Shown piece by piece: positions 975 to 20,296 of a stretch of DNA of 22,631 nt (its first letter is position 1; every line of letters begins with the position of its first letter). Both the position numbers and the translations under genes were made by a program. This stretch comes from a virus: IMG/VR virus record IMGVR_UViG_3300034272_000415, positions 1 through 22,631 of that record; one strand, 5' to 3'. Below the pieces are notes generated by a model. That model made no database searches, was not told the origin of the DNA, and worked only from the letters and a program-made list of their open reading frames with translations.

Positions 975-3074
975 ATGACCACACAGGCCGGATCGGGAAC
1001 AAGTATTGCTTTAGTTGATGACCGGGGCGACGGGACGCATGTTCCGATTGTCAAGGCTGAGTCAAGCAATATTACGACCAAGTTTCGTGAGGCATTTGAG
1101 GTATATAACCCAGCATCGCCAGATTCTCCTTGGGTTGAGGTAAGGCACGCAGACGATCTGGCTTTTGTTGACGGCAATACTGGCGGCGCTTCGTATTTGG
1201 TGCTTAGTAAGTCTCCGTGGGCAACCGGTTCCGAAACTATAATTGAGTCCAAGGCTTCGTTTAGGCTCCCGCTTGAGGTTTCTTTTGGCGCTCACATGTC
1301 GCAGCGCGTTGTCGGGCAAGAATTTTCCATCGAAATTGTTGACACTGGAACGCCACTGCCGGAACCCGCTGATCTTGCAATCGCTTCGATTTCGCAGGCC
1401 ACTACGGTTTTGACCGTCAATACGACCTTGCCGCACGGTCTGACGATTGGTCGATGCGTCGGTGTTCGAGGCGTTTCGAACTCGTCCGCGAACTATCCTC
1501 AGTTGGTTGTGGCGACGGTTCCAACGCCGACACAGTTTACTTGCACGGTGGCAACCGGCACGATCACGACGGTCAATAACAGCGGATTCGTATATTTTCG
1601 TGAGCGATTCGGTCGGGCAAGTAACGGCGTATCGCAGATCTTTGAAAACGCTACTGTCACCAACGCCAACCTTTATATCCGGTCTGAGTCTGGCGATTCG
1701 CTGCCGTCTGGGACGATTGCAGGTAGTCAATCGGTGACGGTTGGAACGACAGCATCTGTGCAACTGGCAAACTCACCTTATTCCTACTCTTTCGTTCCTA
1801 CGACAGAGTTTCGGATCAATGTCCAGGCTGACAGGACTCAATGGTATGACTCTGGGGTTGATTCGCTTTCTCCGACAACTAGCCGTTTGCTTCGGACGCA
1901 AATTTGCCCAGATCCAAGCGAAAATTATAAATTTCGCATTCGAGCCAACAACGCGAAGAGCCTCACCGTTCCGGTCGCGCAAATCGTCTCGGCGGTCAAG
2001 AGCGGCACCACCACGGCGCAGATCACATGCGACCGTGAGCATGGGTTGACTACTTCTGATGTGGTCGTGGTGTACGGTATCCGGGCGCAGGGCGCAACGG
2101 AATTTCCGAACCTTATCACCGCCACCGCAGTTGCCTCAATTGTTTCCCCGACGGTCTTTACGATTGTCATTGGAACGGCTGGCACGATCACCTCATACGG
2201 AGGTTATGTCGCCCGGGTCAACGGCAGTAACCTAACGTCGGCTCTCGGTGGTATCGCGCAGGTGGCGCAAGCTGCTGTGCTTTCCACGCTGGCTGACGGC
2301 ACACGGCAACTGGTTTTGACCGGTTCTGCCAACTGGACTGGATCGGTGATTGGCGATCTGGTTGAGTTGGTTGGCGTACGCAACGATACGACCGGCGCAA
2401 CTCTGGGCGTCGATGGCCCTTGGAAAGTGGCCAACCTTTCCACTACAGCGCTTACGCTGGTGCTGCCGTTCAGCGGCCAGCGTACATTGCCTGCCGATTT
2501 TGGTTCGATCAACTGCGGCGGCGGTGTGATCCGACGCACAGACCTGCGCGTGTCGTTTGTCCGTGTGTTTGACTATGAGCGTCAGCGTGTAGAGGCTCTT
2601 GCTCGTCCATCTTCTGACGTTGCAGGCGCGTTCCCTGTTGCTGTTCAAAACACGGTCACAACGACATTCACGCAACCGGCTCTCGTGGCTGGTACGGCGT
2701 TGATCGGTGACGTGGGCGTTCAGTACAGAACAACGGCCTCTGGCGCATCTGCAACCCACCTTGTAGCGGCGGCTTCTGCCAATCCGACGCTCGTGAAGGC
2801 GTCAGCAGGTAAGGTCTTGGGATGGTTCTTCGCCAACACAACTGCGGCTTGGGTGTACGTCAAGCTGCACAATCAAGCTACCGCCCCGACCGCTGGAACG
2901 GGTGTTGTGCGAACAATTGGCATCCCGCCGAACGGCATTTCAGAGTTCTTTAGCGAGGGTGGCGCGTTTACTTTCGCAACAGGTATCGGTCTGACCACGG
3001 TCACTGGAGCGGCAGACGCAGATGCAACTGCGGTGGCGGCAAATGCGATTGTTGGTGAATTGGTTTGGGCTTAA
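975..3074 (+). CDS. Large virion-associated protein with repeated beta-domains, between portal and protease
   Basis: A 699-aa protein rich in Thr, Val, Ala and Gly, with beta-structure character and no enzyme motif. Residues about 133-212 and 332-416 are two copies of a module with a Thr-rich strand, an HGL turn (LPHGLTIGR; REHGLTTSD), a V-V-x-GV/GI strand and a P-T-x-F-T strand, similar to the FCCH-type beta-domain in many phage virion proteins. A third, weaker copy is at about 426-520. Residues 545-699 form a different domain (NPTLVKASAGKVLGWFFANT, KLHNQATAPTAGTGVVRTI) that I associate with phage structural or decoration proteins. The start is fixed by GGAG 7 nt upstream. Its place between portal and prohead protease is unusual, since those genes are normally adjacent in HK97-type heads. 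Likely a head decoration, head-fibre or neck component (inference); no specific family is certain. Confidence 0.6.
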   Translation: MTTQAGSGTSIALVDDRGDGTHVPIVKAESSNITTKFREAFEVYNPASPDSPWVEVRHADDLAFVDGNTGGASYLVLSKSPWATGSETIIESKASFRLPLEVSFGAHMSQRVVGQEFSIEIVDTGTPLPEPADLAIASISQATTVLTVNTTLPHGLTIGRCVGVRGVSNSSANYPQLVVATVPTPTQFTCTVATGTITTVNNSGFVYFRERFGRASNGVSQIFENATVTNANLYIRSESGDSLPSGTIAGSQSVTVGTTASVQLANSPYSYSFVPTTEFRINVQADRTQWYDSGVDSLSPTTSRLLRTQICPDPSENYKFRIRANNAKSLTVPVAQIVSAVKSGTTTAQITCDREHGLTTSDVVVVYGIRAQGATEFPNLITATAVASIVSPTVFTIVIGTAGTITSYGGYVARVNGSNLTSALGGIAQVAQAAVLSTLADGTRQLVLTGSANWTGSVIGDLVELVGVRNDTTGATLGVDGPWKVANLSTTALTLVLPFSGQRTLPADFGSINCGGGVIRRTDLRVSFVRVFDYERQRVEALARPSSDVAGAFPVAVQNTVTTTFTQPALVAGTALIGDVGVQYRTTASGASATHLVAAASANPTLVKASAGKVLGWFFANTTAAWVYVKLHNQATAPTAGTGVVRTIGIPPNGISEFFSEGGAFTFATGIGLTTVTGAADADATAVAANAIVGELVWA

Positions 3075-3267: not shown

Positions 3268-3936
3268 ATGGAAATCAAAAAGTCAGCGCACGAAATCCGG
3301 TCGTATTCATTTGAAGTGAAAATGACTGGCGAGGATGGCGAGATCGAGGGCTACGGCTCCGTTTTCGATATCGTTGATTCATACGACGATGTGATCGCCA
3401 AGGGTGCTTTTGGAAAGACCTTGGGGGAGCATAAATCGAAAGGTTCCATGCCTGCGATGCTTTGGCAGCATGACGCCAGCCAGCCGGTGGGTGTCTGGAC
3501 TGAGATGTCCGAGGACTCCCACGGGCTGAGGGTCAAGGGCAAATTGGCAATGAACACTGCCAAGGGCAAAGAGGCTTATGAACTGATGAAGATGGGCGCA
3601 ATTACTGGTCTGTCAATCGGGTTTATGTCGAAGCAGTGGGCCTATGACCGGGAAACCGAAGTCAGGACATTGACCGAAGTCGATCTGTGGGAGGTGTCGC
3701 TTGTGACTTTCCCTGCCAACGATAAATCGAGGGTGACAAGTGTCAAGTCGGTTGACGAGATTCTGTTGCCCAAGGATGCTGAGAATGTCTTGCGTGATGC
3801 AGGATTTTCAAAGTCTGACGCGACTGCATTTGTGTCGCGTGTCATGCGGATGGGCGAGGCGCGGAGTGATTCTGCGGACGATGCTTCCGTGAAAGATGCG
3901 GCTGAAAGGCTGCTCCGTTCCCTAAAATCCAATTGA
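3268..3936 (+). CDS. HK97-family prohead protease (peptidase S78/U35)
   Basis: A 222-aa maturation protease that is packaged inside the procapsid and cleaves the delta domain from the major capsid protein, then digests itself. The N-terminal block EGYGSVFDIVDSYDDVIAKG is characteristic. The family catalytic His is His68 in MLWQHDASQPVG and the nucleophile Ser is Ser116 in ITGLSIGF. The conserved EVDLWEVSLVTFPAN strand follows at about 137-151. The C-terminal 70 residues are charged and helical, and may bind inside the prohead. A G-rich sequence at 3255-3258 precedes the ATG. It sits directly before the capsid gene, as expected, and its stop overlaps the capsid ribosome-binding site. Confidence 0.95.
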   Translation: MEIKKSAHEIRSYSFEVKMTGEDGEIEGYGSVFDIVDSYDDVIAKGAFGKTLGEHKSKGSMPAMLWQHDASQPVGVWTEMSEDSHGLRVKGKLAMNTAKGKEAYELMKMGAITGLSIGFMSKQWAYDRETEVRTLTEVDLWEVSLVTFPANDKSRVTSVKSVDEILLPKDAENVLRDAGFSKSDATAFVSRVMRMGEARSDSADDASVKDAAERLLRSLKSN

Positions 3937-7297: not shown

Positions 7298-7312
7298 TCA
7301 ATTGGTATTCAA

Positions 7313-7326
7313 TGTCCGGCCGGACA
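7313..7326. repeat. Perfect 14-bp palindrome in the tail tube leader
   Basis: TGTCCGGCCGGACA reads the same on both strands. It is 4 nt before the AAAGGAG ribosome-binding region of the tail tube gene and just after the promoter candidate. It could be a dimer-protein operator or a short self-pairing RNA element; no run of T follows, so it is not a terminator. Confidence 0.6.
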
Positions 7327-7343
7327 CTTAAAGGAGATTTATC

Positions 7344-7994
7344 ATGGCGTATGCGTTCCCCGAGGGGTCAAAATTTCAATTTTCTACCACTTTTGCAGCT
7401 GCAAAAACCATTTCTGCGATGACAAACGCCAATCCAACGGTTTGCACATCGACAGCTCATGGTTACGCTGACAACGACGAAATTCTTCTGACTTCCGGTT
7501 GGGAAGATGCGACCGACACGGTGTGGCGTGCCGACCAACTGACCGCTGACACTTTCAGTCTGGTTGGCTTGGATACGACGAGTACTTCGTTTTACGCTGC
7601 TGGAGGTGGCGCGAACTCAAGCGCCCAGCGAATTACTGGATGGACAGACATTCCTCAGGTTCTGTCGATTGCGACTTCCGGTGGTGATGCCCGGTTTACG
7701 ACCATCAGCCCTCTGGCGAGGCGCAATGCAATCAACGTGCCGACCGGATTCAACCCCACCACGATCACGCTTACTCTGGGCCACGACCCAGCGTTGGCTG
7801 CTTATGCGACCATGCTTAACATCTCCCGCGCACTGTCAAAGGTGGCCTTCAAGATGGTGATCTCTGGTGGCGGCACTACTTACGGCTTCGGTTACATGAG
7901 CGTGTCTGAGGCCCCGTCGCTGAACGTGAACCAAGCCAACACTGTTCAGGCCGCAATCACGCTGCTCGGACGCTCGATCTCGTATGCAACCTGA
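7344..7994 (+). CDS. Major tail tube protein
   Basis: A 216-aa protein with a strong AAAGGAG ribosome-binding site (about 7330-7336). Residues about 22-92 form a beta-module with TSTAHGYADNDEILLTSGW and the later TADTFSLVGLDTT, the same pattern as the repeats in the 699-aa gene. Residues about 95-216 are the tube domain: GWTDIPQVLSIATSGGDARF, an RRNAINVPTGFNPTTITLTL strand pair, the ALAAYATMLNISR helix and the final strands (AAITLLGRSISYAT). Subunits stack as hexamers to form the tail. A gene of this size, with terminator immediately after and the tail chaperone next, is in the expected position. Confidence 0.9.
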   Translation: MAYAFPEGSKFQFSTTFAAAKTISAMTNANPTVCTSTAHGYADNDEILLTSGWEDATDTVWRADQLTADTFSLVGLDTTSTSFYAAGGGANSSAQRITGWTDIPQVLSIATSGGDARFTTISPLARRNAINVPTGFNPTTITLTLGHDPALAAYATMLNISRALSKVAFKMVISGGGTTYGFGYMSVSEAPSLNVNQANTVQAAITLLGRSISYAT

Positions 7995-8015
7995 TCGGAT
8001 CTGATCTGTTTCAAG

Positions 8016-8039
8016 CCCGGTCAATTGGCCGGGTTTTTC
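8016..8039 (+). terminator. Intrinsic terminator after the tail tube gene
   Basis: A 7-bp stem CCCGGTC / GGCCGGG (one T-G pair) with AATT loop, followed by TTTTTC. It is 22 nt after the tail tube stop and partly precedes the chaperone ribosome-binding site, matching the arrangement found behind the capsid gene. Confidence 0.78.
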
Positions 8040-8058
8040 TTTGCCTAAAGGAGAAGTA

Positions 8059-8448
8059 ATGAAAGTCAAACTTGGAATGCGGCCTAAGAATTTCAAGCGT
8101 ACCGTGAAGTTCCCGATGCTTGATGGGACGGAAGGTGTGATCGAGGTTGTGTTCAAGTACCGGACTCGGACTGAGTTCGGGAAGTTCATTGATGACATGA
8201 TGAATGCCGCGAATGAGCAGGCTGACGGTCAGACGGCTGAAGATCAGCGAGTTTCGCTTGGTCGAGCGCTGGAAAAGACCAAGGAAGCGAATGCGGACTA
8301 CATTCTTCAGATTGCCGAGGGCTGGAACCTCGAGGAGTCATTCGACCGGGATAATCTTGCTCAACTGTGCGACGAGATCCCTGGGGCTGCGATGGCGATT
8401 ATGGACGTTTATCGTGCGGCGATTGTCGAGGGCCGGATGGGAAACTGA
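8059..8448 (+). CDS. Tail assembly chaperone, short form (lambda gpG-like)
   Basis: A 129-aa protein starting MKVKLGMRPKNFKRTVKFPM, with ribosome-binding site AAGGAG 6 nt upstream of the ATG at 8059. The beginning (beta strands, GVIEVVFKYRTRTEFGKFID) and the later helical half (LQIAEGWNLEESFDRDNLAQ; IPGAAMAIMDVYRAA) fit the phage tail assembly chaperone family (TAC_4 type). These proteins bind the tape measure protein before the tube polymerises and are absent from the finished virion. The gene ends one codon after a GGGAAAC heptamer, allowing a fraction of ribosomes to continue into the next frame, as lambda G and GT do. A TTG at 8041 is in frame but lacks a ribosome-binding site. Confidence 0.88.
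   Translation: MKVKLGMRPKNFKRTVKFPMLDGTEGVIEVVFKYRTRTEFGKFIDDMMNAANEQADGQTAEDQRVSLGRALEKTKEANADYILQIAEGWNLEESFDRDNLAQLCDEIPGAAMAIMDVYRAAIVEGRMGN
8439..8445 (+). promoter_or_regulatory. Programmed -1 ribosomal frameshift site (GGGAAAC)
   Basis: In the zero frame the codons are ATG GGA AAC TGA, so the heptamer is G GGA AAC, a canonical X XXY YYZ slippery site placed directly before the chaperone stop. Slippage by -1 continues as CTG AGG CGA into the frame ending at 8759. Lambda uses GGGAAAG at the same place. A GAGGG (8428-8432) lies just upstream and might act as an internal stimulator; no convincing downstream hairpin was found. Confidence 0.88.
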
Positions 8449-8759
8449 GGCGAGCTGCGGAATTACTGTATGAAAAGCAGGATGATTCTGCGGCTCAAAA
8501 TCCATTTATTGCGGCTGTTCTTAACGCCCAGGGCAAGGACGACGTAGAGGTGTGGCCGGAGAACTGGCCGGTGTTTGAAATCTTCGCCGGTGTTGGTACG
8601 CAATGGCGAATAGGTATGGCAGGGCCGACTGGATTGGACTACAATGCCATATACCCTTTGCTTGATAGGGTTTTTGACTGTCGGGATGATTGGGATGATG
8701 CGTTTTTGTGCATCCGCGTTATGGAATCTGCTGCGCTTGAGGTGCTGAATGGCCGGTGA
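8445..8759 (+). CDS. Frameshift extension of the tail chaperone (DUF1799-like; GT-type C-terminal part)
   Basis: A 104-residue -1 frame segment (LRRAAELLYEKQDDSAAQNP ... ESAALEVLNGR) expected to be made only as a fusion with the upstream chaperone, giving about 233 residues. It has the DUF1799-like aromatic and acidic motifs (VEVWPENWPVFEIF; TQWRIGMAGPTGLDY; CRDDWDDAFLCIRVME). In lambda the T part contacts tail tube subunits while the G part coats the tape measure protein, and this is presumed here. The only upstream in-frame initiator is a GTG at 8367 without a ribosome-binding site and inside the chaperone, so independent initiation is unlikely. It overlaps the tape measure start by 11 nt. 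Confidence 0.82.
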   Translation: MRRAAELLYEKQDDSAAQNPFIAAVLNAQGKDDVEVWPENWPVFEIFAGVGTQWRIGMAGPTGLDYNAIYPLLDRVFDCRDDWDDAFLCIRVMESAALEVLNGR

Positions 8760-11700
8760 TGACAAAAGAAAGGCCCAGTTAGAGATTGGCGTTAATGCTG
8801 ATCCTGCGGTCGACGGCTTAAAGAAAGTTGGCGATCAAGCCCTGAAAATGGGGCAGCAGGTCGAGCAGGGTGCTAATCAAGCCTCGAAGGGGATGGACAA
8901 ACTCCCCGAGCAGAGCAAGAAAGGTGCTGAGGGTTTTGATCGGGCAACCAAGAGCCTGATCAATTCGATTCAGAGAACGACTGCTGCGATGGATGCTGGC
9001 GGTCGGTCGAGTGCAGATTATTTCCGGTTGTTGGCGCAACAGAGGGGCGTTAGCACTGCTGCGCTTGATCCATATCTGAAGCAGCTTGAAGAGGTCAACC
9101 GGCGTCAGTTGCAGGTAAATGGTGCGATTGCTGGTGCATCTCGGGCGTTGGACGGCACGACGACATCTGCCAAGCAGTTGAACTTCGCTCTCCGGCAGGT
9201 TCCGGCGCAGTTTACGGACATTGTGACTTCTCTACAGGGTGGACAACCTGCTTTGCAAGTCCTGCTCCAGCAGGGTGGCCAGTTAAAAGACCTGTTTGGT
9301 GGGGTGGGCGCTGCGGTGCAGGCTTTGAGTCGGTACATGCTGACTCTGGTCACACCGCTCAATACGGTGCTTGCTGGTCTGGGTGTTTTGGCATTCGGAT
9401 TCGTCAAGGGGTCTCAGGAGGCGCAGGAGTTCCAGAAAACGCTTGTTTTGACCGGGAACTCGGTTGGGTTGACCGCCGATAGGCTGGTTGACATCTCGAG
9501 ATCGCTGGACAATTTTGGGACGACACAAGCAAAGGGTGCAGAAGCGCTGAATCGCTTTGCTCAGACAGGCTTGATTGCGGCATCGAACCTTGAGCGCTTC
9601 GCTTTGGCGGCAATCAAGTTTGAGCAGGTTGGTGGGCCTGCCGTCGAAGAAACCGCGAAGGCTTTTGAGGAACTTGGCAAAAAGCCTCTTGAAGCTGCGA
9701 TCAGGCTTAACGAGACAACAAACTTTCTCACGAAGTCGGTTTACGAGCAGATCAAGGCATTGACCGAGCAGGGGCGGGTTACTGAGGCTGCGACCGTTGC
9801 CCAGAATGCCTATGCTGACGCGGTGGAAAAGCGGACGCCTGAACTGGTGGCAAGGCTTGGTCTGCTTGAGCGAGTCTGGATCGGGATCAAGAACGCCACG
9901 AAGGAGGCTGGTGACGCAATTCTGTCGATTGGCCGCGCTGATACCCCTATTGATACACTTCGCAGGCTTCAGGATCAGGTCAACATTGCGGCCCAAAATA
10001 GGACGATTCTTGCCCAGCGCGGGATGAGTACCGAGAATCAGGATCGGTCGATTGAATCCCTGAATGAGCAGATTCGACTTTTGCAGAAGGCTATTTCTGC
10101 CGAAGAGGATCGAGCTGCTGCGGTTGCAAAGTCTGCGAAGGAAGTGAAAGACAAGATTCAGGCCGACAAGGAATACGAGAAGATTCTGAAAGAGGCCGAG
10201 AGTTGGATCAAGAAATTCTCGGATGCTCATACCCAGGCGCAAGGCGCGGTTGATGGTCTGACCAAGACTCAGGAGACGTTGATCGAGTTCCTGATGTCGG
10301 ATGCGTACAAGAAGATGGCCGAGCCGATGCGTCAGAAGGCGCTTGCTGCCGCCTATGCTGCCATCGAGATCGAGAAGCAGGTCATCGCCGAGAAGGAGTT
10401 GCAGAAGGCCAATGCCGAGGCAACGAAGGCTGAGTTTGAGCGCACGGCTGCCTATGAAAAGGCTGCTGAGACCGCAATCAAGAACCTTGACCGGATACGG
10501 ACTGAAAACGAGGCCTATGCTTTGTCGATTGAGCGCAATGTCTCTCTGGCCGAGGCGATTGAACTTGTGACGGTTGCGCGGTTGCGTGAGCAGCAGGTTT
10601 CATTGGGGCGTGAGGGCGATCGGGATGTCGAGATCCTGGCGATCCAGCGGGAGATTGACGCGAGGCTTGCGGCTGTTAGCGAGTTGCGCCAGAAAAAGAT
10701 CCGTGAGGATATTGAAAAGTCTGCGAAGGCGGCAGAAGAAGCATGGAAAAGGGCGGCGCAGAAGATCGAAGATTCGATTGTCGATGCGCTGATGCGTGGT
10801 TTCGAGCGTGGTGACGGGATCATTGAGAACCTGAAGCGCACGATTGAGAACACGTTCAAGACTCTGGTATTGAGGCCGATCATCCAAGCCGTTGTGTCCC
10901 CGTTCACGAGTTCCTTGATGGGCGGCGGAGCTGGTGGCATCTCCAACATTCTTTCTTCTGCAAGCGGGATTCAGAGCATTTACGGTGCGGTGACAGGTGG
11001 TCTTGGATCGTCGGTCGGAACCGCGATTGCAAATGCCGGAGGTCTATTTGGTTCGCAGGCTCTTCAAGCGTTTGGGCTTGGGATGCGCGGGTCGGTTCTC
11101 GGGCCGGGGATGATGGGGCCGACAACGATTGGCGCTCCGGGTGCGATGGGTGCTGGCGCTGCATTTGCTCAGGTTTTGCCGTATGTGGCTGCGGCGACTG
11201 TTGCCTATTCTGCGCTTGCAAGGCCCGGGGAGACTCGGGCTGGCGGTCAGTACGGGTTCAATTTTGGCGATGGATTGATCAACCAGCGGCGTGGAACCGT
11301 GGTAGGCAATGCGGCTCTCGGGGTCAACTTCCTTGAAGGCCCGAGCGGTGGGGCGACGAATGATCAGGCTGTCAGGGACGCGATTACAGCGACCGTAGGA
11401 ACTATCAATTCGATCTTGGCTGGTGTCGGTAGTCGGGCTTCTCTGACGGGCTTTCAGGCCGGTTTAGAGACTTCCAGCAAGGGTCGAGGTGGCGTCTTTG
11501 CCGGCGGTAGGCTTTCGACCGGGGCGTTGTTTGGTGAGTCTGGTCAGGGTGATAACTACGCCGGGACGCTTTTTGAGTCTTTCAGTACCCAGAGTCCTGA
11601 TGCTGCGACCGCTCTGAAGAACTTCTCCATCGACCTGAAGCAGGCGACGATTCAGGCATTGCAGGCGGCAACGGATATTCCCAAGTCGATTGCAGACAAG

Positions 11701-13461
11701 ATCAAGGATGTGGACGCTGAGGCTTTGTCCGAGCAGGCTGCGAATGCGCTTGTCGAACAGATCGCCACCATCGTCGACTCTGTTTCTGGGCTGAAGGCCG
11801 CTCTTGCTGGACTGCCTTTTGAGGATGTCAAGAATCTCAGTTTCGATGCGTCAGTCAGTTTGATCGAGTTTGCAGGTGGTCTGGACAAACTGACAGGGAA
11901 CCTTGCAACCTATTACGACAACTTCTTCACGGCGGCTGAGAAACAGGCTTCGTTACAAGACCAGATTGGCAGTGCGTTTGACAGCCTGAATCTTGCTCTC
12001 CCGGAGACTCGCCAGCAATTCCGCGACCTAGTAGAGGCGCAGGACTTGTCTACCGAGGCAGGTCGGAAGAACTACGCTGCGCTGCTTTCGCTGTCTGGTG
12101 CGTTTGCTACGCTGACGCAGGGTGCGGATGAACTGGCGCAGGCTTCGCGCAGGACTGCTGAACAGATCGCAAGCGAGCGCACTGGACTTGAAAACAGGCT
12201 GCTTCAGATCGTCGGCAACACCCAAGAACTCAGGGCGCGTGAACTTGCAACGATTGACGAGAGCAATAGGGCTTTGCAAGAAAGGATCTGGCTGATCGAG
12301 GATCAGATCGAGGCCGATCAGAGGGCGATTCAGTCTGCCGAGGCTGCATTGTCTGGCGCGAAAACGGCGACCGACGAGGCATTCAGCGTGTTGCAGGCGT
12401 CTGTGAATGCTCAGAAGCAGGCTGTTCAGGCTTCGATTGATGTTGCGCGGGAGCAGATCAACTCTGCAAACGGTCTGATTTCTCTTCTAAGGGCTACTGC
12501 TGGGGATTTTCGTCGGGGCGATGTTTCTACCGCAAGGGGTGCGAGATCTTTCCTAACGCGGTCGATTGAAGCGGCTCAGACAACTGGATATCTTCCCGGC
12601 CAAGACGACCTTGCGGAAGCAATTGATGCGATTCGGCAAGACGTTGAAACTACAACGTATGCGTCTGCGTTTGAGGCGAATAAAGACCGCGCTTTGTTGA
12701 TCAATCAGTTTGAGGAATTGGCGAGCCTTGCAGAAGATCAGATGACCGAGGCCGAAAAGCAGTTGAAGGCTTCCGAGGATCAGTTAAAGGCTTTGGATGA
12801 TGTCGTGAAGAGTGCGCAAGATCAGTTGAGCGCCTTGCGTAGTGTTGATATGAGCGTGAAGTCTGTTGAACAGGCTATTGTCTCTTTGTCTGCTGCGATT
12901 GAGGCCGAGCGTGCTGCAAGCCTTCAACTTCTCAATGCTCAGAATACAGCGACGACCAATGCCGCGAATAGGGCGAACCAGACATCTCCTGTATCGGCTT
13001 CGGCGAACAGTGAGCCTGCTGGCGTGACAGTTCGTGACTTGTATCAGAGCCTGTTCAATTGGAATGGCGATGCGGCTGGAATTGCTTATTGGGAGAACCG
13101 ATTCGGTTCTTCGATTGATCAGGCAGAGATTGACCTGTTCAAGTGGGCTGGCGAGAATACCTTGCGTGAGCGCGGGGTTCCGGGTTTTGCTGACGGTGGA
13201 TTCCATGCTGGTGGGCTTCGTGTTGTCGGTGAGCGTGGCCCGGAGATTGAGGCGACTGGCCCTGCGATGTACTGGGATGCGAACCAGACTTCGCGTATGC
13301 TGTCCGGCGGGAACATGTCCGATGAAATTCGGGGTCTGAGAGAGGAAGTCGCAATGCTGAGATACGAGACTCGGGCGACAGCTGTAAACACTGCCAAGAC
13401 ATCGAAGGTGCTTGAGCGCGTGACGCGTGATGGTGAATCTCTACTTGTGACGAACGCCTGA
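8749..13461 (+). CDS. Tail length tape measure protein (1570 aa)
   Basis: The largest gene; it sets tail length and is probably ejected or lies in the tube during infection. Residues about 138-230 contain the family signature NFALRQVPAQFTDIV, GGQPALQVLLQQGGQLKDLF and a hydrophobic stretch (about 197-219). Residues about 646-726 resemble the lambda gpH C-terminal domain (WKRAAQKIEDSIVDALMRGF ... LRPIIQAVVSPF). A Gly/Ala-rich hydrophobic region follows (about 755-825), then long coiled-coil segments (about 1130-1400). Residues about 1427-1473 look like a DUF4214 module (LYQSLFNWNGDAAGIAYW), followed by GFADGGFHAGG / VVGERGPEIEATGPA, usual at tape measure C-termini. A GAGGTG ribosome-binding site precedes the ATG by 4 nt. 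Scaling from lambda gpH (853 aa, about 135 nm) suggests a tail of roughly 235-250 nm (inference). Confidence 0.96.
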   Translation: MAGDDKRKAQLEIGVNADPAVDGLKKVGDQALKMGQQVEQGANQASKGMDKLPEQSKKGAEGFDRATKSLINSIQRTTAAMDAGGRSSADYFRLLAQQRGVSTAALDPYLKQLEEVNRRQLQVNGAIAGASRALDGTTTSAKQLNFALRQVPAQFTDIVTSLQGGQPALQVLLQQGGQLKDLFGGVGAAVQALSRYMLTLVTPLNTVLAGLGVLAFGFVKGSQEAQEFQKTLVLTGNSVGLTADRLVDISRSLDNFGTTQAKGAEALNRFAQTGLIAASNLERFALAAIKFEQVGGPAVEETAKAFEELGKKPLEAAIRLNETTNFLTKSVYEQIKALTEQGRVTEAATVAQNAYADAVEKRTPELVARLGLLERVWIGIKNATKEAGDAILSIGRADTPIDTLRRLQDQVNIAAQNRTILAQRGMSTENQDRSIESLNEQIRLLQKAISAEEDRAAAVAKSAKEVKDKIQADKEYEKILKEAESWIKKFSDAHTQAQGAVDGLTKTQETLIEFLMSDAYKKMAEPMRQKALAAAYAAIEIEKQVIAEKELQKANAEATKAEFERTAAYEKAAETAIKNLDRIRTENEAYALSIERNVSLAEAIELVTVARLREQQVSLGREGDRDVEILAIQREIDARLAAVSELRQKKIREDIEKSAKAAEEAWKRAAQKIEDSIVDALMRGFERGDGIIENLKRTIENTFKTLVLRPIIQAVVSPFTSSLMGGGAGGISNILSSASGIQSIYGAVTGGLGSSVGTAIANAGGLFGSQALQAFGLGMRGSVLGPGMMGPTTIGAPGAMGAGAAFAQVLPYVAAATVAYSALARPGETRAGGQYGFNFGDGLINQRRGTVVGNAALGVNFLEGPSGGATNDQAVRDAITATVGTINSILAGVGSRASLTGFQAGLETSSKGRGGVFAGGRLSTGALFGESGQGDNYAGTLFESFSTQSPDAATALKNFSIDLKQATIQALQAATDIPKSIADKIKDVDAEALSEQAANALVEQIATIVDSVSGLKAALAGLPFEDVKNLSFDASVSLIEFAGGLDKLTGNLATYYDNFFTAAEKQASLQDQIGSAFDSLNLALPETRQQFRDLVEAQDLSTEAGRKNYAALLSLSGAFATLTQGADELAQASRRTAEQIASERTGLENRLLQIVGNTQELRARELATIDESNRALQERIWLIEDQIEADQRAIQSAEAALSGAKTATDEAFSVLQASVNAQKQAVQASIDVAREQINSANGLISLLRATAGDFRRGDVSTARGARSFLTRSIEAAQTTGYLPGQDDLAEAIDAIRQDVETTTYASAFEANKDRALLINQFEELASLAEDQMTEAEKQLKASEDQLKALDDVVKSAQDQLSALRSVDMSVKSVEQAIVSLSAAIEAERAASLQLLNAQNTATTNAANRANQTSPVSASANSEPAGVTVRDLYQSLFNWNGDAAGIAYWENRFGSSIDQAEIDLFKWAGENTLRERGVPGFADGGFHAGGLRVVGERGPEIEATGPAMYWDANQTSRMLSGGNMSDEIRGLREEVAMLRYETRATAVNTAKTSKVLERVTRDGESLLVTNA

Positions 13462-17513: not shown

Positions 17514-17762
17514 ATGGACTGCCAAGACAACCCGAACTGCCAAGAAGCGGCAGACAGAGCCGTGAAGAAGGTGTTTGCGATCCTCGGAGTCGATGTTGAC
17601 AGGCCCGAGTCGGTCGAGAACTTCCGAGAGGATTTGAGATTCGGCAGGAAACTTCGCAAGGCTGCGGATCACGGTTTCCTTGCGTTGGTCGGACTTATCG
17701 TGGTTGCAATGGGCGCAGCTCTCTGGGCCGGGATCGTATCCAAGATCAATGGTGGCCACTGA
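17514..17762 (+). CDS. Small single-pass membrane protein
   Basis: An 82-aa protein. The start is set at ATG 17514, 9 nt after GGAG (17501-17504); a GTG at 17508 would be only 3 nt from that site. Residues 1-50 are soluble and charged with Cys3/Cys8 (MDCQDNPNCQEAADRAVKKV; RPESVENFREDLRFG), and residues about 54-78 form one hydrophobic helix (FLALVGLIVVAMGAALWAGI). The FAILGVD / FREDLRFGRKLRK pattern recurs in many short phage proteins near lysis genes. The single helix fits a holin partner or antiholin-like role, but this is not shown. The stop overlaps the next start by one base. Confidence 0.7.
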   Translation: MDCQDNPNCQEAADRAVKKVFAILGVDVDRPESVENFREDLRFGRKLRKAADHGFLALVGLIVVAMGAALWAGIVSKINGGH

Positions 17763-18688
17763 TGTCGCGAAAATACTCTGATCAGGAGTTCATTACCGCA
17801 TTCAGATCAATTGGAAGTCCTGCCGAAGTAGCCAAAAGCCTTGGGATGGCCGAAAGGGCCGTTTATAAGCGCAGAGCTTCGATTGAAAAGCGGCTTGGCA
17901 TTACGCTTGAGTCGAACCCGCAGCCTGAGTTTTCAAACGGGAGCAAGGTCATCCGCTACCAGATCGAAAGCGGGAATGTCTTGATTGGGTCGGATGCTCA
18001 CTACTGGCCGGGAATCATCACCGAGGCGCACAAGGCATTCGTGCGAATGGCGAAGAAGCTGAAACCGTCAGCGATCATCATGAATGGCGATGTGTTCGAC
18101 GGCGCAAGGGTTTCGAGGCATGACCCGCTTTTTAAGTCTCACTCGCCGACGGTGAAGCAGGAAATCGAGGCCTGCCGAGATCGACTGGACGAGATATCAA
18201 GCGCGTCGAAGAACTCGAAACTGTTCTGGACGTATGGGAATCACGACACCAGGATCTATCGGTATGTGATGAATGGCGCACCTGAACTCGCAGACCTGAC
18301 CGGGGCCGACCTGTTCTCGTACTTTCCCGGATGGCATCACGGGATGGTTGTCAACATCAATGACACGGTCGTGGTGAAGCATCGGTGGCACAATGGCGGC
18401 GTTACGGCCATTCATAACAATGTGCTGAAGTCTGGGAAAACGCTGATTACAGGCCACCTTCATCAACTAAAGGTTGTTCCTTGGAGTGACTATCTTGGCA
18501 GGAGATACGGGGTAGATTCTGGAACGCTTGCAGAGCCTTATGGCGAACAGTTCGACTACACCGAGGGCAACCCGGTGAATTGGTGTTCCGGGTTCGCTGT
18601 CCTGACCTTTAAGAATGGGAAGATGCTGCCGCCCGAACTCTGCGAGGTGATCGACGGCAAAGCGTATTTCCGGGGGGGCGAGGTGTGA
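17762..18688 (+). CDS. HTH-domain calcineurin-like metallophosphoesterase
   Basis: A 308-aa protein with an N-terminal helix-turn-helix (about residues 6-45: VAKSLGMAERAVYKRRASI) and a C-terminal phosphoesterase. The metal-binding motifs are complete and in order: D78-A-H80, GD109-110 with D113 (NGDVFDG), GNHD at 159-162, H207 (VVVKHRWHNGG) and GHLH at 231-234. It should therefore bind two metals and hydrolyse a phosphoester; the substrate is unknown. Proteins with this HTH-phosphoesterase architecture occur in other proteobacterial phages. It sits between fibre and lysis genes and is joined to the acetyltransferase gene by a GTGA overlap, suggesting linked expression. Cytosolic, as no signal peptide is seen. 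Possible roles are nucleic-acid end or cyclic nucleotide processing (speculative). Confidence 0.88.
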   Translation: MSRKYSDQEFITAFRSIGSPAEVAKSLGMAERAVYKRRASIEKRLGITLESNPQPEFSNGSKVIRYQIESGNVLIGSDAHYWPGIITEAHKAFVRMAKKLKPSAIIMNGDVFDGARVSRHDPLFKSHSPTVKQEIEACRDRLDEISSASKNSKLFWTYGNHDTRIYRYVMNGAPELADLTGADLFSYFPGWHHGMVVNINDTVVVKHRWHNGGVTAIHNNVLKSGKTLITGHLHQLKVVPWSDYLGRRYGVDSGTLAEPYGEQFDYTEGNPVNWCSGFAVLTFKNGKMLPPELCEVIDGKAYFRGGEV

Positions 18689-19110
18689 AATACACCATCC
18701 GCGAGGTTCAAGTCTACGACCTGAGAGCAGTCGCGGACATCAAGCGGATGCACAGGGTTTGCTTTCCGTATGATTCCTCATTTGAACCCAAGATCGGCCA
18801 TTGGTGGATCGCGTATCACGCCGGAGAGCCGGTCGGGTTTGCCGGCATGAAGCTGTCCTCGAGATGGATCGACTGCGGTTACCTGTGGCGATCTGGTGTG
18901 CTTGCAGACCATCGGGGCCGCGGGCTTCAGGTTCGATTCATCAAGGCGCGGGAGCGCAAGGCACGGAAACTCGGGTGGAAGTATCTGATCACCGACACAT
19001 CCGACAACCCGTCGAGTTCAAACAATCTGATCAAGTGTGGCTTTACAATCTATGACCCGTCGATTGAGTATGGGTTCAGGCACACGGTTTACTGGCGAAA
19101 GGCAATCTAA
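18685..19110 (+). CDS. GNAT-family N-acetyltransferase
   Basis: A 141-aa protein starting at GTG in a GTGA overlap with the phosphoesterase gene. It has the GNAT outline: an N-terminal strand-helix (YTIREVQVYDLRAVADIKRM), the HWWIAYHAGEPVGFAGM strands, the acetyl-CoA binding motif A (SGVLADHRGRGLQVRFIKAR at about 70-89), and the late LGWKYLITDTSDNPSSSNNL / KCGF element with an Asn for cofactor contact. The second position after RGRG is Leu-Gln rather than Gly-x, which occurs in some members. The target of acetylation is unknown. The stop overlaps a 22-aa membrane miniprotein start. Confidence 0.85.
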   Translation: MKYTIREVQVYDLRAVADIKRMHRVCFPYDSSFEPKIGHWWIAYHAGEPVGFAGMKLSSRWIDCGYLWRSGVLADHRGRGLQVRFIKARERKARKLGWKYLITDTSDNPSSSNNLIKCGFTIYDPSIEYGFRHTVYWRKAI

Positions 19111-19181: not shown

Positions 19182-19661
19182 ATGATCGAGACCTTGCTTG
19201 GTGGTGTATTCGGTGGGCTTTTGAGGTTGGCCCCGGAAGCGTTCCGGCTTTTCGACAGGGCCAATGAGCGCAAGCACGAAATCGCCATGCTGAACGCCGA
19301 GATGGAGTTCGCGAAGATCCGTGGTGAGATTGCCATGCGCCAGACCGAGGCTCAGATGACAATGGCCGAGATGGATGCAATGGCCGAGGCATTCAAGGAG
19401 CAGTCTGCGACCGCCCAAGCTGCAGGGAAATTCATTGCCGGGATCTCCGCGCTGGTCAGGCCATCTGTCACATATGCTTTCGTGATCTGCTATTTCCTGG
19501 TCAAGTTCGCGTCATACCTGATGGCGCTGGAGCAGGGTGGTGAATGGAAGGATGTGATCATCCGTCTCTGGACGCAGGATGACGCCACGATCATGTTCAT
19601 GCTGATTTCGTTTTGGTTTGTCGGTCGGGCGCTTCATCATACAAATGGTGGCAGGGGCTAA
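19182..19661 (+). CDS. Holin, 3TM gene-transfer-agent type
   Basis: A 159-aa protein starting MIETLLGGVFGGLLRLAPEA, followed by FDRANERKHEIAM, the characteristic opening of the GTA holin 3TM family. A first hydrophobic segment lies at about 4-17, then a long charged amphipathic helix (28-80), and two clear membrane helices at about 94-116 (RPSVTYAFVICYFLVKFASY) and 134-151 (ATIMFMLISFWFVGRA). Holins form holes in the inner membrane at a set time, letting the endolysin reach the wall. The ribosome-binding site is GGGGTGA (19172-19178). The endolysin downstream is soluble, so a large-hole holin is required. Confidence 0.88.
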   Translation: MIETLLGGVFGGLLRLAPEAFRLFDRANERKHEIAMLNAEMEFAKIRGEIAMRQTEAQMTMAEMDAMAEAFKEQSATAQAAGKFIAGISALVRPSVTYAFVICYFLVKFASYLMALEQGGEWKDVIIRLWTQDDATIMFMLISFWFVGRALHHTNGGRG

Positions 19662-19663
19662 AA

Positions 19664-20296
19664 ATGAAATCTTGCACCAAGTGTAAGCAAGAAAGAGACC
19701 TTAGTTTTTTTAGAACAAAAACGAACGGGAAGTTGGACTCGTGGTGCAGAGAGTGTTACAAGAAAAATTCGAGAAACTATGAACAAAAGAACAAGGAAAA
19801 AATTGCCGAATACAAAAAAACCGATGCATACAAAGCCCTTAAAGCCAAATGGAATTTGGATTACACAAATCGAAACAAAGAGTCGCTGCTTGCAAAGAAA
19901 AGAGAAGGTTATTCAAGAATCCGTGATTCGCACCTAAAAAAAATGAAAGAGCACTATCAGAAAAATTCTGAAGCATACAAACAAAGAGCGAAAAAATGGA
20001 AGCAAGATAACCGCGCATTGCATAACGCAAGATGCATGGATCGGTACACTTCAAAAATCAAAAGATGCCCAGCATGGGCAAAAGAGCTTACTGATTTGGT
20101 CTGCAAAGAGGCTTATGATAAGGCTGTTAGGTTGTTTAAGCTTACTGGCGTTTCTTATGACGTTGATCACATTGTCCCACTTTTGGGAAAAACAGTAAGC
20201 GGTTTGCACGTTTACAACAACTTGCAAGTAATCCCGGCAAGCGTTAATCGAAGCAAAAAAAACCTGTATTGGCCTGATCAATGGCAAAACAATTGA
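19664..20296 (+). CDS. HNH homing-type endonuclease with N-terminal zinc ribbon
   Basis: A 210-aa protein starting at ATG 19664, two bases after the holin stop, with AGGGG upstream. The N-terminus is a zinc ribbon (CTKC at 4-7, CREC at 28-31), the middle (about 35-140) is a Lys-rich helical stretch likely to contact DNA, and the C-terminal HNH core has DVDHIVPLLG (D168-H169), LHVYNNLQVIP (N186) and NRSKKN (from 195). The gene is much richer in A and T than its neighbours, with many AAA codons, marking recent arrival. It splits the holin-endolysin cassette and overlaps the endolysin start by 16 nt. This is the pattern of a freestanding homing endonuclease. Confidence 0.9.
   Translation: MKSCTKCKQERDLSFFRTKTNGKLDSWCRECYKKNSRNYEQKNKEKIAEYKKTDAYKALKAKWNLDYTNRNKESLLAKKREGYSRIRDSHLKKMKEHYQKNSEAYKQRAKKWKQDNRALHNARCMDRYTSKIKRCPAWAKELTDLVCKEAYDKAVRLFKLTGVSYDVDHIVPLLGKTVSGLHVYNNLQVIPASVNRSKKNLYWPDQWQNN

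Follow-up and report, generated by a model that had tools for sequence, protein, structure and literature searches.

In phage lambda, low-level −1 frameshifting yields the proteins gpG and gpGT at a ratio of about 30:1; the binding partner of gpG is the tape measure protein, and that of the T domain is the tail tube protein (PMC5009743). Xu, Hendrix and Duda 2004, as cited in PMC3483164 and PMC5009743, deal with how this arrangement is conserved among dsDNA phages. In Burkholderia phage KL1, a GGGAAAC heptamer immediately before a TGA has been predicted as the shift site of gp18/gp19 (PMC3483164), and both elements were checked in the KL1 sequence during this work. In one cluster of phage tail chaperones, two members are reported to have measured frameshift efficiencies of 6-7% (PMC3711429).

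The locus considered here lies in a virus DNA of 22,631 nucleotides (IMG/VR record IMGVR_UViG_3300034272_000415, positions 1 to 22,631), referred to below as the window, which takes up the whole of that record. Like lambda G/GT, it is placed between the tail tube and tape measure genes, its predicted shift has the same direction, an in-register XXXYYYZ heptamer is found near the end of the chaperone frame, and the second frame would form a C-terminal extension. It differs from lambda in that the heptamer directly abuts the stop codon and in the Z base, which is C in the window (G_GGA_AAC) and G in lambda (G_GGA_AAG). The analogy to lambda that the original prediction had drawn thus stands for position and mechanism but not for the identity of the heptamer. 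The protein families detected in the window are Phage_TAC_4 and DUF1799. KL1 has the identical heptamer at the identical place before TGA and a predicted −1 fusion of tail proteins; its chaperone sequence, compared by eye only, looks unrelated to that of the window and, unlike in the window, an extra gene separates the fusion from the tape measure gene. Also close are isolate phages with Phage_TAC_4/DUF1799 chaperones, which have homologous proteins in both frames and the same junction, with identities to the window proteins of 23-50% for the chaperone and about 29-37% for DUF1799. On the evidence given below, a lambda G/GT-type programmed −1 ribosomal frameshift very probably joins the chaperone and the DUF1799 segment at this locus.

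Results

The genes that surround the predicted shift site form, as judged from their families, a siphovirus tail cluster in the standard order tube, chaperone and tape measure, where the tube and tape measure genes flank two frames that overlap (Table 1). The gene families, the gene order and the DUF1799 label that had been proposed from the bare sequence were borne out by the Pfam and PHROG matches. The chaperone matches PF08748 with 102.8 bits (gathering cut-off 21.1) over profile positions 4-124 of 124, and the second frame matches PF08809 with 84.3 bits (gathering cut-off 26) over positions 10-79 of 80. Both parts also align, separately and in order, to the 213-position profile of phrog_17368, the chaperone at positions 51-105 and the DUF1799 part at positions 151-208; in at least one family, the two thus count as one protein. 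A search for solved structures returned none recognisable by sequence for the chaperone or the DUF1799 part, and a nucleotide search with positions 7300-10300 against the phage collection gave no matches.

Elsewhere in the window, a 699-aa ORF without Pfam match (975-3074, + strand) follows the portal gene (2-910) and precedes the prohead protease gene (3268-3936), an unusual site for a large unknown gene. The late region contains a GNAT acetyltransferase gene (18685-19110, + strand) that adjoins a calcineurin-like phosphoesterase gene (17762-18688). A 227-aa ORF without Pfam match (19613-20296, + strand) shows, by eye, CxxC pairs and a DHIVPL motif resembling an HNH-type endonuclease.

Table 1. 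Coordinates of the tail genes and of the predicted frameshift elements in the window
Feature	Position	Strand	Basis
Major tail tube protein gene, 216 aa, upstream neighbour	7344..7994	+	Pfam PF08813 E 2.3e-32; phrog_584 E 8.2e-57
Zero-frame tail assembly chaperone, 129 aa, G-like product	8059..8448	+	Pfam PF08748 Phage_TAC_4 E 1.9e-29; ATG with AAAGGAG upstream
Slippery heptamer G_GGA_AAC, in register, abutting the zero-frame TGA	8439..8445	+	Sequence; kept in relatives
−1 frame DUF1799 segment, 104 aa, T-like domain; proposed C-terminal part of a 233-aa fusion	8445..8759	+	Pfam PF08809 E 6.8e-24
Zero-frame TGA stop; in the −1 frame read through as (C)TG A..	8446..8448	+	Sequence
Predicted RNA stem-loop, putative stimulator; 18 pairs, 2-nt bulge, 7-nt loop, 6-nt spacer from the heptamer	8452..8496	+	
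Tail tape measure protein gene, 1570 aa; lies downstream and overlaps the −1 frame at its end	8749..13461	+	Pfam PF06791 TMP_2 E 9.1e-66

Codon positions counted from the ATG at 8059 place the last chaperone codons at ATG(8437), GGA(8440), AAC(8443) and TGA(8446), which confirms the claim that GGGAAAC stands in exact zero-frame register directly before the stop. From 8445, the −1 frame is open for 104 codons up to the TGA at 8757-8759 and encodes the DUF1799 match, as had been expected, and the predicted fusion of about 233 aa proves to be exactly that length (129 + 104). As a bare string, GGGAAAC is not unusual in the window (four copies, 3.4 expected). However, the chaperone ORF contains no other in-register XXXYYYZ, and when the codons are permuted, a heptamer of this kind abuts the stop with P = 0.0035 and lies within three codons of it with P = 0.013. 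Taken alone, this rarity is modest evidence for a frameshift site.

The decisive part of the sequence-based case comes from the conservation of the site across relatives, for which an alignment of the heptamer in related phages had been suggested by the original prediction. We compared 94 loci (the window and 93 relatives from isolate phages and viral contigs) that were chosen by protein similarity and not by heptamer. In 93 of them, the chaperone frame has at its end an in-register site for a shift into DUF1799; the 94th (L038) is truncated where its contig ends. The sites are GGGAAAC in 70 loci, AAAAAAC in 21 and the non-canonical CCAAAAG in two, that is, 91 of 93 are canonical (L046, L051, L052 and L059 among them). 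In most loci the site abuts the stop, with one or three codons between in a few. Of the isolate relatives, Acidovorax phage Aval, Vibrio phage Vaitephage and Pseudomonas phage YMC11/02/R656, with the A_AAA_AAC types in Drexlerviridae, carry either G_GGA_AAC or A_AAA_AAC before the stop. After dereplication to loci with less than 75% identity over the DUF1799 part, 61 remain, with 44 GGGAAAC, 15 AAAAAAC and two CCAAAAG sites. Among the dereplicated GGGAAAC sites, the glycine codon is GGA in 44 of 44, versus 16 of 331 glycine codons (4.8%) elsewhere in the same ORFs. Since GGA is fixed at the site but rare elsewhere, selection appears to act on the nucleotides and not just on the amino acids.

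Intact genes around a mutated heptamer had been named in advance as what would speak against a shift site. Across the relatives, only Klebsiella phage JVSB2 (L008:1377-1390) and Enterobacter phage ST22 (L014:991-1004) depart from the canonical types: they read CGC CAA AAG CCY before the stop, with CCAAAAG in register. Both genes are present in the two phages, the canonical heptamer is absent, and the annotated second ORF begins just upstream of the chaperone stop. CCAAAAG may be a non-canonical shift site or the second ORF may be initiated separately. The tool PRFect names a "twofour" shift motif (PMC10885494), and we take CCAAAAG, with its two-then-four repeat pattern, to be of this type. A search for viral relatives of this variant (that of ST22) confirmed none.

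RNA structure downstream of the heptamer, which is common but not obligatory in G/GT-type systems, is also predicted here. The stem-loop listed in Table 1, which had gone unmentioned in the original prediction, has a folding energy of −24.4 kcal/mol (z −4.6), and none of 200 shuffled sequences was as stable. When the dereplicated loci (61) are folded, the 60-nt segment that follows the heptamer is more structured, with a mean z of −1.55 and 41% below −2, than its surroundings, with means of −0.06 to −0.46 for five upstream segments and −0.23 to −0.53 for three segments at least 120 nt downstream. With 50-nt segments, the paired Wilcoxon test gives p values of 6e-5 to 1e-4 against upstream segments at least 60 nt away and weaker ones (3e-4 to 0.01) against those at least 60 nt downstream. 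The stem-loops of the relatives share no one alignable structure and are not obviously homologous, and an Rfam search of the window gave no match. In the closest relative (L002), the chaperone is identical to that of the window and the heptamer is kept, while the start of DUF1799 has diverged after the junction. Within the stem of the window, L002 differs at two pairs by double, compensatory changes and at two by single changes, and a further two pairs are broken; a similar stem of −22.7 kcal/mol is predicted for it at the same place. On these predictions, the stem-loop is likely the second half of the shift signal.

Discussion

The main competing explanation is that the two frames are separate overlapping genes, with DUF1799 translated from its own start through reinitiation or a non-standard start codon. 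Several public records do annotate the DUF1799 part as a separate ORF that starts inside or near the overlap, and some relatives offer an ATG or TTG 20 nt after the stop. However, the sole ATG, GTG or TTG in the −1 frame of the window, from 100 nt upstream to about 104 nt downstream of the shift, is a GTG at 8367, whose pairing with the anti-Shine-Dalgarno sequence is weak (−4.1 kcal/mol versus −8.7 for the chaperone and tail tube starts), and the next one, a GTG at 8550, 104 nt downstream, would remove the first 35 DUF1799 residues, which align with those of relatives. Independent translation of DUF1799 is unlikely for these two reasons, and the claim that the second frame has no plausible start of its own has held up. 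In addition, homology in the alignment (A2) reaches the shift point, with the first leucine, encoded by the codon that starts at the last base of the heptamer, invariant in 11 of 11 sequences, and independent starts leave both the fixed GGA codon and the heptamer unexplained. We therefore rejected this explanation as very improbable.

A fusion arising from slippage of the RNA polymerase rather than of the ribosome was considered as well. AAAAAAC, present in about a fifth of the relatives, does offer a run on which the polymerase could slip, but the GGGAAAC of the window and of most relatives has runs of only three, which are too short for efficient polymerase slippage, and an RNA stem-loop placed about 6 nt downstream agrees with slippage of the ribosome. 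This origin was likewise rejected, with a probability that we place close to nil. Even less credit can be given to a chance heptamer, a sequencing indel or a mutation that breaks one gene, or two frames that are mere neighbours. The chance frequency of the GGGAAAC string in the window would agree with such an accident, but the same arrangement in dozens of independent contigs and isolate genomes and the strong codon bias at the site do not, and this reading is refuted by conservation. Programmed −1 ribosomal frameshifting is thus the preferred explanation: what had been observed at the end of the chaperone frame is confirmed, and its interpretation is supported.

From the sequence and its register, the homology and conservation of both parts and the predicted RNA structure, we infer the following course of events. 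Most ribosomes would stop at the TGA at 8446 and release the 129-aa chaperone. In a minority, the stem-loop that begins 6 nt further on would cause a pause at GGA-AAC, both tRNAs would slip back by one base (GGA to GGG and AAC to AAA), and translation would resume at CTG 8445 to give the 233-aa chaperone-DUF1799 fusion. By analogy with lambda, the part common to both products would attach to the tape measure protein, and tail tube subunits would be recruited by the T-like domain of the fusion. The rate of slippage at this site may be low, although lambda itself needs only about 1 in 30. For the A-type heptamer, a C at the Z base is reported to make shifting in E. coli less likely. The heptamers of the family belong to two strongly conserved types, both ending in AAC and placed directly at the stop, and the downstream hairpins are varied. 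It is conceivable, although we would not favour the idea, that proximity of the stop codon and hairpin strength, rather than the heptamer, set a low fusion ratio in each phage.

To conclude, the site in the window adds a well-supported case to a known mechanism: frameshifting is predicted in a further uncultivated phage. Both the fusion of 233 aa and the unmodified product of 129 aa can now be annotated correctly, whereas several public relatives give the pair as two separate ORFs. In Acidovorax phage Aval (L003:1432-1743), the DUF1799 part is labelled "FAD-dependent oxidoreductase", which is likely a misannotation. Besides, the conserved heptamer together with the stem-loop can serve as a signature by which to recognise this gene pair in phages from metagenomes.
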